Source of the DNA: Micavibrio sp.
GTDB taxonomy: Bacteria; Pseudomonadota; Alphaproteobacteria; UBA9219
Assembly (NCBI GenBank): GCA_020718105.1
Contig: DYDA01000018.1
Span: 1-44,462, forward strand
Reading direction: 5' to 3'
Length of the DNA: 44,462 nucleotides
The position numbers and the translations under genes were made by a program. Below, one piece after another: positions 5,001-43,042 of the stretch. The notes under the pieces were generated by a model, which was not told where the DNA came from, did not search any database, and saw only the letters and a program-made list of their open reading frames with translations. The stretch's first letter is position 1, and the number at the start of each line of letters is the position of its first letter.

Positions 5001-5137
5001 CCGTCATTGCGACCCCCGCATAAGCGGGGGGAAGCAATCCAGCTGCCGCGCGTCTGCGCGGCAGAAGATTCTCTTGCGCGGCGGACGCCGCGCAACTGGA
5101 TTGCCGCGTCGGCCTAAAGGCCTCCTCGCAATGACGG
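5001..5137. repeat. Composite palindromic repeat, copy A
   Basis: Bounded by CCGTCATTGCGA and its inverted form TCGCAATGACGG, with nested GC-rich stems inside (a CCCCCGCATAAGCGGGGG stem and CGCGCGTCTGCGCG). It fills most of the recO-parC gap. The same outer ends recur at 7540-7676, 33158-33289 and 42145-42271. Confidence 0.8.
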
Positions 5138-7490: not shown

Positions 7491-7709
7491 GACCTGTTGC
7501 ATACCAGCGAACAAATGATCCGACTCATACAAAAATAAACCGTCATCGCGAGGAGGCCCCCGCACTTGATGCGGGGGACGACGTGGCGATCCATCTCCTG
7601 AATTGGCAAGCAAGGTTATTGATGGAAAGAGCAGGTGATGGATTGCCACGCTCCCTGCGGTCGCTCGCAATGACGGAAATGGGTAGTTTCATGCGTTCGC
7701 TGGTATAAT
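7491..7709. repeat. MITE-like element containing composite repeat copy B
   Basis: A perfect 12-base inverted repeat (ATACCAGCGAAC at 7501-7512 and its complement at 7695-7706) brackets about 180 bases. The left end begins GACCTGTTGCATACC, close to the terminal repeat of the element at 26190. Inside, 7540-7676 has the CCGTCATCGCGA ... TCGCAATGACGG ends of the composite palindrome family. This explains most of the 330-base gap after parC. No transposase is encoded. Confidence 0.5.
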
Positions 7710-21005: not shown

Positions 21006-21112
21006 CGTCATTCCCGCGAAAGCGGGAATCCAGCGCCGAGCGTCCGCGAGGCTTATGACTCATCCGCGCCGCAGACGCGGCGCAGCTGGATCCCCGCTTT
21101 CGCGGGGATGAC
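21006..21112. repeat. Composite palindromic repeat, copy C
   Basis: Outer ends GTCATTCCCGCG and CGCGGGGATGAC. A central core (21066-21091) is identical over 26 bases to 33229-33254. It separates the XRE and phosphoribosyltransferase genes and could form a long hairpin in their transcript. Confidence 0.8.
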
Positions 21113-28839: not shown

Positions 28840-29009
28840 ACCTCCCCCCTTGCGGGGGAGGAAATGAAAACTTTGACTTGCGGAGCAAGTCACTAGTTTT
28901 CATAGGTGGGGGGTCACAAAATCTCAGCCACTATGACCCCCCACCTAGTTTTTCTAGGACTTACTACGTAAGCCCAAGAAAAACTTTCCTCCCCCGCAAG
29001 GGGGGAGGT
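28840..29009. repeat. Compound palindrome upstream of pnp
   Basis: Perfect 23-base inverted arms at 28840-28862 and 28987-29009 enclose three further hairpins: TGAAAACT/AGTTTTCA around 28864-28902, AGGTGGGGGGTCA/TGACCCCCCACCT around 28904-28946, and AGTTTTTCT/AGAAAAACT around 28947-28985. The set is fully nested and symmetric. It fills the gap between pnp and the GNAT pair. No gene is seen here. Confidence 0.75.
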
Positions 29010-33157: not shown

Positions 33158-33289
33158 CGTCATCGCGAGCAACCGCAGGGAGCGTGGCGATCCAGATGCC
33201 GAGCGTCTGCGAGGCATAAGAGTCATATGCGCCGCAGACGCGGCGCAGCTGGATTGCTTCCCCCCGCCTTCGCGGGGGTCGCAATGACG
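33158..33289. repeat. Composite palindromic repeat, copy D
   Basis: Ends CGTCATCGCGAG and TCGCAATGACG. It contains the 26-base core shared with 21066-21091 and the GAGCGTCTGCGAGGCATAAGA string also found (inverted) inside anmK. It fills most of the gap between the HExxH gene and the 50-residue gene. Confidence 0.8.
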
Positions 33290-41515: not shown

Positions 41516-41881
41516 ATGACGACAACGCAACAACAACCAAACGATCTTATTCGGGAAGAAGACGAACGCATCGTTCGCCTTATTAAAAGAGGCATGTTGC
41601 TTGTCGCCTTTGGCGCGGCGGCGACTGTTTTTGTCACGCCTATCAATGGCTTTTCTATCGGGGCTTTCGCCTTAGCCGCGACGAATTATGCGGCTATTTC
41701 GGCCATAGAGGCTTTGGATGCCTCTAATCAAGAAAAGGAACAGCAACCCCATTTTAGAGCGCGCTGGAAAAAAGCTCTCTTGCATCCTTTTCAAAAACCG
41801 ATCACGGTGCAGCGTCCCGCCCGTCATCGGCGCGGGAACGGAAGTCGTGTTGGGAACGCTAAGCGGCAACCCCAACCGTGA
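41516..41881 (+). CDS. Small membrane protein, function unknown
   Basis: 121 residues. A charged N-terminus (DLIREEDERIVRLIKRGM) precedes one or two hydrophobic segments at about 28-65 (LLVAFGAAATVFVTPINGFS, then IGAFALAATNYAAISAIEAL). The last 45 residues are basic and read over the 3' part of anmK on the other strand, a 210-base convergent overlap. AAAAGGAGAG precedes its ATG. The N-terminal 80 residues look real; the tail may be read-through after loss of an original stop. Confidence 0.65.
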   Translation: MTTTQQQPNDLIREEDERIVRLIKRGMLLVAFGAAATVFVTPINGFSIGAFALAATNYAAISAIEALDASNQEKEQQPHFRARWKKALLHPFQKPITVQRPARHRRGNGSRVGNAKRQPQP

Positions 41882-43042
41882 ACGTACAGCCAGATAGGCA
41901 AAGGCTTCAGCTTCGATCGCATCGCCATTCCAGCCTAATTCATCAACGGATTTAATCGGCAGCCGCGTTTTATTCGCAAGCCAGCGCATCATCGTCGCAT
42001 TATGACGGCCACCACCTGCGATAAAAATCTCACGCGGCGCGGCAGGCACAGCCTCAAGCCCCTTTGCAATCGCGGCCACCGTCATCATGGTGAGCGTCGC
42101 CGCGCCATCCTCTACTGTCATCGCAAAAGATACATTGTCATCATCCGTCATTGCGAGCGGAGCGAAGCAATCCAGCTGCGCCGCGTCAGCGGCGCATAAA
42201 ACTCTTATGCCTCGCAGACGCTCGGCTGACTGGATTGCCACGTCGGCGCTTCGCGCCTCCTCGCAATGACGATTTAGGGTTGGCACAAAATCCGCAAAGA
42301 CATCGCGATCCAAAGACTTTGGCGGCTTTTGCGTAAAAAACGGATGCGCCAAAAACGCGGCAACGTGTGCCTCATCTGGCACGCCTTGCGCGGCCATGGC
42401 GCCATCACGGTCACAGCTTTGCCCCGCATGACGCAGCATCCAGTCATCAATCAGCGCGTTGCCTGTCCCCAGATCAAAAGCCAGAATCTCATCATCACCC
42501 TCACCGCCAATCCACGTTATGTTCGACACGCCGCCGATATTGATGATCGCGGTAGGCTTAGGCAGCGCCGCCGCCAAAGCGCGATGATACAGCGGCACAA
42601 GAGGTGCGCCTTGCCCGCCCGCTTTCACATCGGCTGTGCGAAAATCATTCACGACATCAATGCCCGTCAGCTTTGCAAGCAACGCGCCGTCGCCAAGTTG
42701 AATCGTCTCACGCTCCGCCGGATTATGCCAAATCGTCTGGCCATGAAACCCGATGAGATCAAGGGCAGAAGGCTCAAGCCCCTCTTGCTTCAAGAAAGCG
42801 GCAACAGCCTTTGCATGAAGCGTTGTCAGCTCGTCCTCAACCTCGCGCACCAAAGGATCCGTCGTTCCCTCACGCTTGCCAAAACAGGCGCGAAGACGCT
42901 CCCGAAACGCTGCCTCGTACGGCATAAACAGAAAGCCCAGCGGCTTGACATGGCTGCGCCCGTCCGTTTCAATCAGGGCAACGTCCACGCCATCCAGCGA
43001 TGTGCCGCTCATCAGGCCTATGGCACGATAGAATGGGGTCAT
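41672..43042 (-). CDS. anmK: Anhydro-N-acetylmuramic acid kinase with repeat-encoded insertion
   Basis: 456 residues. It phosphorylates and opens 1,6-anhydroMurNAc in peptidoglycan recycling. Family motifs are intact: IGLMSGTSLDGVDVA, LIGFHGQTIWH, DFRTADVKAGGQGAPLVPLY, IINIGGVSNITW, LAFDLGTGNALIDDW and IFIAGGGRHNATMM. Residues 258-299 are translated from a palindromic repeat (42145-42271) and are absent from normal AnmK. The family's usual end MTGG is at 406-409; 47 further residues continue to a stop inside the convergent gene. Minus the insert, 367 residues would remain, the normal length. ATG 43042 starts the conserved region; the open frame beyond overlaps tyrS. Confidence 0.92.
   Translation of the reverse strand: MTPFYRAIGLMSGTSLDGVDVALIETDGRSHVKPLGFLFMPYEAAFRERLRACFGKREGTTDPLVREVEDELTTLHAKAVAAFLKQEGLEPSALDLIGFHGQTIWHNPAERETIQLGDGALLAKLTGIDVVNDFRTADVKAGGQGAPLVPLYHRALAAALPKPTAIINIGGVSNITWIGGEGDDEILAFDLGTGNALIDDWMLRHAGQSCDRDGAMAAQGVPDEAHVAAFLAHPFFTQKPPKSLDRDVFADFVPTLNRHCEEARSADVAIQSAERLRGIRVLCAADAAQLDCFAPLAMTDDDNVSFAMTVEDGAATLTMMTVAAIAKGLEAVPAAPREIFIAGGGRHNATMMRWLANKTRLPIKSVDELGWNGDAIEAEAFAYLAVRSRLGLPLSVPNTTSVPAPMTGGTLHRDRFLKRMQESFFPARSKMGLLFLFLIRGIQSLYGRNSRIIRRG
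42145..42271. repeat. Composite palindromic repeat, copy E, inside anmK
   Basis: Ends CCGTCATTGCGAG and TCGCAATGACG, with the same GCGGCGCATAAAACTCTTAT-type core as copies C and D in inverted orientation. In the anmK frame it reads RHCEEARSADVAIQSAERLR onward to LDCFAPLAMT with no stop. Comparable in kind to Rickettsia palindromic elements within genes. Confidence 0.9.

Follow-up and report, generated by a model that had tools for sequence, protein, structure and literature searches.

The gene anmK of a Micavibrionaceae-like MAG carries, within its coding sequence, a palindromic repeat that leaves the reading frame open, which raises the question of how such an element came to lie in this gene and in what form it is kept. 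The gene and the parts of its insert are located as follows in the window (the whole stretch of DNA analysed, 44,462 nucleotides).

43042-41672, minus strand: anmK, encoding anhydro-N-acetylmuramic acid kinase, insert-bearing (456 amino acids)
42146-42271, no strand: near-perfect palindromic element of 126 bp, CGTCATTGCGAG...CTCGCAATGACG, in frame in anmK
42110-42281, minus strand: loop region differing from the empty site, 172 nt versus 19 nt in the congeners G005 and G001
42110-42145, minus strand: non-element extension of 36 nt, on the 3' side of the element on the sense strand

The element consists of two CGTC-tagged REP-like units that face each other, with a second hairpin pair between them, and its minus-strand reading is RHCEEARSADVAIQSAERLRGIRVLCAADAAQLDCFAPLAMT (RHCEE...LAMT, 42 amino acids). 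As RNA, it has a folding energy of -76.7 kcal/mol (z -6.5 with respect to shuffled sequence). An Rfam scan gave no match for the element, the sole match in the window being a tRNA elsewhere, and an NCBIfam search with the inserted peptide alone returned no match at E ≤ 1. The preliminary description had placed an in-frame palindrome in anmK at 42145-42271, which holds except for the first base, located one position outside the element (42146 is correct). The gain of about 42 residues that it reported corresponds to what the element encodes, but the net gain with respect to the empty site is 51 residues.

This empty site was observed in G005, a MAG that carries the label Micavibrio aeruginosavorus (DYNT01000061.1), and in G001 (DNGD01000199.1). 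The AnmK of G005 is 89% identical to the protein studied across residues 1-255, and in both congeners residue 255 is joined to about residues 309-311 by just 3-4 residues. The claim that homologues skip the insert region was thus confirmed by these alignments, and neither of the two repeat-free homologues contains the residues in question. Alignment of the DNA with both congeners revealed a net insertion of 153 nt, or 51 codons, composed of the 126-bp element and about 27 bp of non-element flank; a simple insertion of the element leaves this additional flank unaccounted for. The motif ATGAC occurs twice in the extension (0.04 expected), an observation from one gene only. Since the insert is missing in both G005 and G001, the insertion is later than that split; as the source genome is a MAG, a local misassembly at anmK retains some possibility.

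The interrupted protein was identified as AnmK by PF03702 (E 5e-87) and NCBIfam NF007141 (E 8e-143, above the cut-off). In an AlphaFold model, for which 45 homologues were supplied, the pLDDT was mostly >90 in the AnmK core and about 38-62 in residues 251-310, and the top solved-structure match of the modelled protein was the AnmK of P. aeruginosa (3qbx, TMt 0.92). The model shows an intact AnmK fold with an insert predicted to be disordered, in line with the initial proposal that it is tolerated as a loop. In an alignment of 46 AnmK sequences, which includes the insert-bearing one, some 58 columns show no variation. With G001 as the outgroup, 6/6/23 substitutions at codon positions 1/2/3 were assigned to the gene's own lineage since the G005 split and 10/5/21 to the G005 branch. 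The third-position bias of the own-lineage changes indicates that purifying selection still acts on AnmK and that the gene is not evolving as dead; together with the modelled fold, it agrees with the view of an enzyme that is otherwise whole. Judging from its sequence, the core enzyme is conserved despite the insert, and AnmK presumably remains active with it. Distinct from the insert is a C-terminal run-on of ~43 residues (414-456) beyond the normal stop; the G005 protein stops shortly past ...GGTLHRVT. This run-on (window 41675-41803) is antisense to the end of a plus-strand ORF at 41516-41881.

A search of the 1.91-Mb genome with the anmK element DNA gave 53 matches at E ≤ 1e-3, a figure in which many places are counted twice, since in a palindromic element each strand is matched separately. 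A profile scan identified 42 distinct end-to-end copies, variants with related ends included, counted in stretches taken around repeats of this Micavibrionaceae-like MAG. The identity between the anmK copy and other copies is 81-90% over 85-125 bp. The repeat family is thus present elsewhere in the genome, as had been supposed; it has tens of copies here, is also found in G001 and G005, and is nearly absent beyond the genus. Sequence comparison indicates that the family is genus-restricted. The following copies and related repeats were located in the window.

5002-5136, no strand: full-length copy of the same element, outside known genes
33158-33289, no strand: full-length copy of the same element, core 90% identical to the anmK copy
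21016-21101, no strand: core copy in a modular chimera, shorter and with different ends (CGTCATTCCCGCG...CGGGGATGACA)
7541-7675, no strand: related composite with the same ends and a different core, enclosed in a larger repeat whose inverted ends are of the ATACCA type

The preliminary description had listed copies at 5001, 7540, 21006 and 33158. Those at 5002 and 33158 are indeed the same element, but those at 7541 and 21016 are only partly alike. In the chimera at 21016-21101, ends and cores seem to have been exchanged between families. The larger repeat at 7501-7708 (~205 bp) has inverted ATACCA-type ends that enclose a CGTC dimer, and copies 94% and 88% identical to it lie near C40:3230-3445 and C16:527-735. 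More than 20 near-identical CGTCATTGCGAGGAGGCCTTGGCCGACGAAGCAATCC copies were observed in G002, suggesting a recent spread in that species. Near-identical repeats of ~190 bp (L176, L177 and L178) are found at or near the ends of contigs C2, C21 and C22; as these contigs end at such repeats, the repeats probably broke the assembly.

The CGTC element is also found in frame, between two stretches of protein sequence, in CarB, MurU, UbiV, a YejF-type ABC protein, PrmC and an S74-domain protein, and insert-free congeners align straight across the site in MurU, UbiV, YejF, PrmC and CarB. Across genes, the element is read in each of its three main frames (RHCEE, VIAS and SLR types). Two other palindrome families, mutually related, are in frame in RecG, UvrA, PolA and MurD, where the UvrA, PolA and MurD inserts rest on profile alignment, not on an empty-site congener. 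The window contains a relative of these inserts:

28841-29008: palindrome CACCTCCCCCCTTGCGG...CCGCAAGGGGGGAGGTG, about 170 bp, multicopy, with relatives in frame in RecG and UvrA

AnmK and at least ten further genes are thus decorated, giving at least eleven in 1.9 Mb; this count excludes candidates located at the beginning or end of an ORF (L002, L010, L251, L252, L260, L267 and others), given that their start sites are uncertain. UvrA (L240), PolA (L246) and RecG (L203) belong to DNA repair and replication, which fits the published preference of REP inserts for such genes. AnmK (window 41672-43042), MurU (L171) and MurD (L247) all function in cell-wall synthesis or recycling, possibly by chance.

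At two of these sites, different families were observed in related genomes. The CarB site harbors a CGTC element here versus a different palindrome (CGCCCTCCCCTTGCGGGAGGG...) in G005, and both inserts start after TGTTTTCCTG and end before TTCTGC; short loops are present at this site in G002, G003, G004 and G010. The RecG site is occupied by the CACCTCCCCCCTTGCGG palindrome here (other copies include window 28841-29008), by CGTC elements in G005 and G004, and by other hairpin-rich inserts in G002 and G003, while its flanks almost adjoin in G010 and G014 and are separated by about 36 nt in G006 and about 21 nt in G012. The alternative families at both sites are multicopy, and this separateness of the occupants favours repeated entry or replacement, a result that rests on two sites in a handful of draft genomes. 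One may speculate that the CarB inter-domain linker and the RecG linker are standing landing sites, where unrelated palindromes enter or replace one another in frame, the site or the resident palindrome being recognised, and are kept as DNA structure and not as peptide; we consider this possible, if rather doubtful.

The inserts in UbiV and YejF have identical junctions in this genome and in G005, and each probably goes back to one old event. Their differences by codon position are 17/15/15 in UbiV and 18/13/16 in YejF. Third positions account for 15/47 of the differences in the UbiV insert versus 117/190 in its flanks, and for 16/47 versus 183/283 in YejF (pooled Fisher test of insert versus flank bias, p = 8e-8). 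In the terminal units of the element, the variable stem pair is Watson-Crick (T-A or C-G) in 78/78, and T-G and C-A were never seen, a count that is not a tally of independent events since the copies share descent. The same 78 units contain 51 different inner hairpins, with a mean MFE of -7.6 versus -3.5 when shuffled. From these sequence patterns, the DNA palindrome and the open frame appear to be kept over time, not the peptide sequence, and the missing T-G pairs would speak mildly against an RNA role. Per element copy, 2.2 of 6 frames are open (about a third), versus 1.7 when shuffled. Frames in the element are thus often open anyway, so that openness alone is weak evidence; it was rejected as such, intergenic copies being equally open.

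Taken together, these data make it quite likely that a non-autonomous, MITE-like composite dimer of CGTC-tagged REPs entered anmK, is tolerated as a disordered loop and is kept as a DNA structure, not as a peptide. The dimer would have entered after the split from the nearest sequenced relatives; it would by chance have been free of stop codons and, with the about 27 bp of extra flank, of a length divisible by three. The insertion may have hit the loop that links an ordered helix to the C-terminal domain, a place at which 51 disordered residues would let the kinase fold, and selection in general would retain insertions that keep the frame, stay open and lie in a tolerant loop. The element was presumably moved by a trans-acting enzyme, and the inserted peptide is presumably translated and neutral. 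A search for PF01797 (the RAYT family) gave no match in this genome and one in G005, and none of 37 flank pairs shares 3 or more bases as a target-site duplication. Long shared flanks around near-identical copies were limited to the larger repeats of ~110-330 bp, and no insertion sequence was seen there. The lack of a RAYT gene and of target duplication agrees with the published lack of a dedicated transposase (PMC3733652). Both would also suit a palindrome made locally by replication template switching, with no mobile copy inserted, as would inner hairpins that vary among copies yet stay paired. However, over 85-125 bp the anmK copy matches others at 81-90% identity, and it has the fixed ends and core of the family, which is not expected from local synthesis, and we regard this origin as highly improbable.

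The insert might alternatively be selected, either because the peptide alters the regulation, partner binding or stability of AnmK or because an mRNA hairpin slows translation or controls decay. Inserts do last in important genes, two of them (UbiV and YejF) being common to two species, and the element RNA folds strongly (z -6.5). Such a role is nevertheless improbable given that the UbiV and YejF insert codons show no third-position bias, that the insert is unstructured in the AlphaFold model and that the CarB and RecG sites are filled by unrelated families; the absence of T.G wobble in 78 units is a better fit to upkeep at the DNA level than to an RNA function. The flat codon-position pattern was the ground for not adopting a selected peptide as the principal interpretation. 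It is very improbable that anmK is decaying, with the insert and the C-terminal run-on marking a gene loss in which a stop has not yet been gained. The lost normal stop and its about 43 extra residues, added to the insert, could be read in this way, but the own-lineage changes are strongly biased to third positions (6/6/23), much as in G005 (10/5/21), the some 58 invariant columns of 46 AnmK sequences are retained, and the hardly dispensable CarB, RecG, UvrA, PolA and MurD bear similar inserts.

The basic phenomenon is known, as in-frame intragenic CGTC REPs have been published. New are the at least ten further genes with in-frame palindromes, the CarB and RecG sites with unrelated families, and insert codons that are unbiased while the stems covary. 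Of these, the most interesting is that unrelated families share sites, which bears on the open question in Rickettsia of whether sites with several groups are insertion hot spots or hold one diverged old insert. The decoration of housekeeping proteins by in-frame palindromes, for which Rickettsia is the best-known case, is extended to a lineage probably related to the predatory Micavibrio, and many repeat-derived peptides are to be expected in the protein annotation of such genomes.

CGTC-tagged REPs have been described in many alphaproteobacteria, the group to which they are mostly confined, with Micavibrio in the family list, and some are intragenic and in frame (Di Nocera et al. 2013, PMC3733652). 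They are frequent in DNA replication and repair genes, lack a dedicated transposase and equal RPE-4/RPE-6 in Rickettsia (PMC3733652). The present element resembles them in its outer CGTC, AT starting the stem and CCA-type tail (CGTCAT(T/C)GC...GC(A/G)ATCCA in 78 units), in the head-to-head dimer with CGTC at both outer ends of full-length copies, in being sometimes in frame in genes, and in the absence of a RAYT-type transposase gene (no PF01797 match in this genome); a scan of this genome (G000) for the CGTC pattern gave 47 matches and the reversed control 0. Families 1-4 of CGTC REPs have a stem of 8-9 bp and a loop of 4-5 bases, whereas a fixed 5-bp stem plus a variable inner hairpin was found here, and the dimer encloses a second hairpin pair, giving the 126-bp unit. 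As this stem and loop design departs from the four published families, the element is filed as a variant. Like GTAG REPs with RAYT, it is short, palindromic, dimer-forming and sometimes intragenic, but it has a CGTC tag and RAYT is absent from this genome; unlike a classical MITE, it shows no target-site duplication. With RPE-1 to RPE-3 and the Wolbachia palindromic elements it shares a palindromic, in-frame, protein-coding nature, although the inserted peptide has no NCBIfam match at E ≤ 1, in a library that may not model all RPE types. The genome copies and the CGTC-REP features support the earlier suggestion that an RPE-like palindrome family exists outside Rickettsia. Compared by described features, it differs from Rickettsia RPEs in belonging to another alphaproteobacterial order, in a much higher G+C, in the use of several frames and in alternative occupants of CarB and RecG that are clearly different palindrome families. 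It is like RPE-4 and RPE-6 in its in-frame inserts with empty sites elsewhere (AnmK, MurU, UbiV, YejF, PrmC and CarB versus congeners), like extended RPE-4 in an extension past the repeat with ATGAC motifs (seen here in one gene, anmK), and like RPE-4, RPE-6, RPE-7 and extended RPE-4 in measuring about 100-150 bp, in lying in frame at exposed or flexible sites of housekeeping genes, and in that a given site can be occupied by distinct groups in species that are related (PMC3767692).
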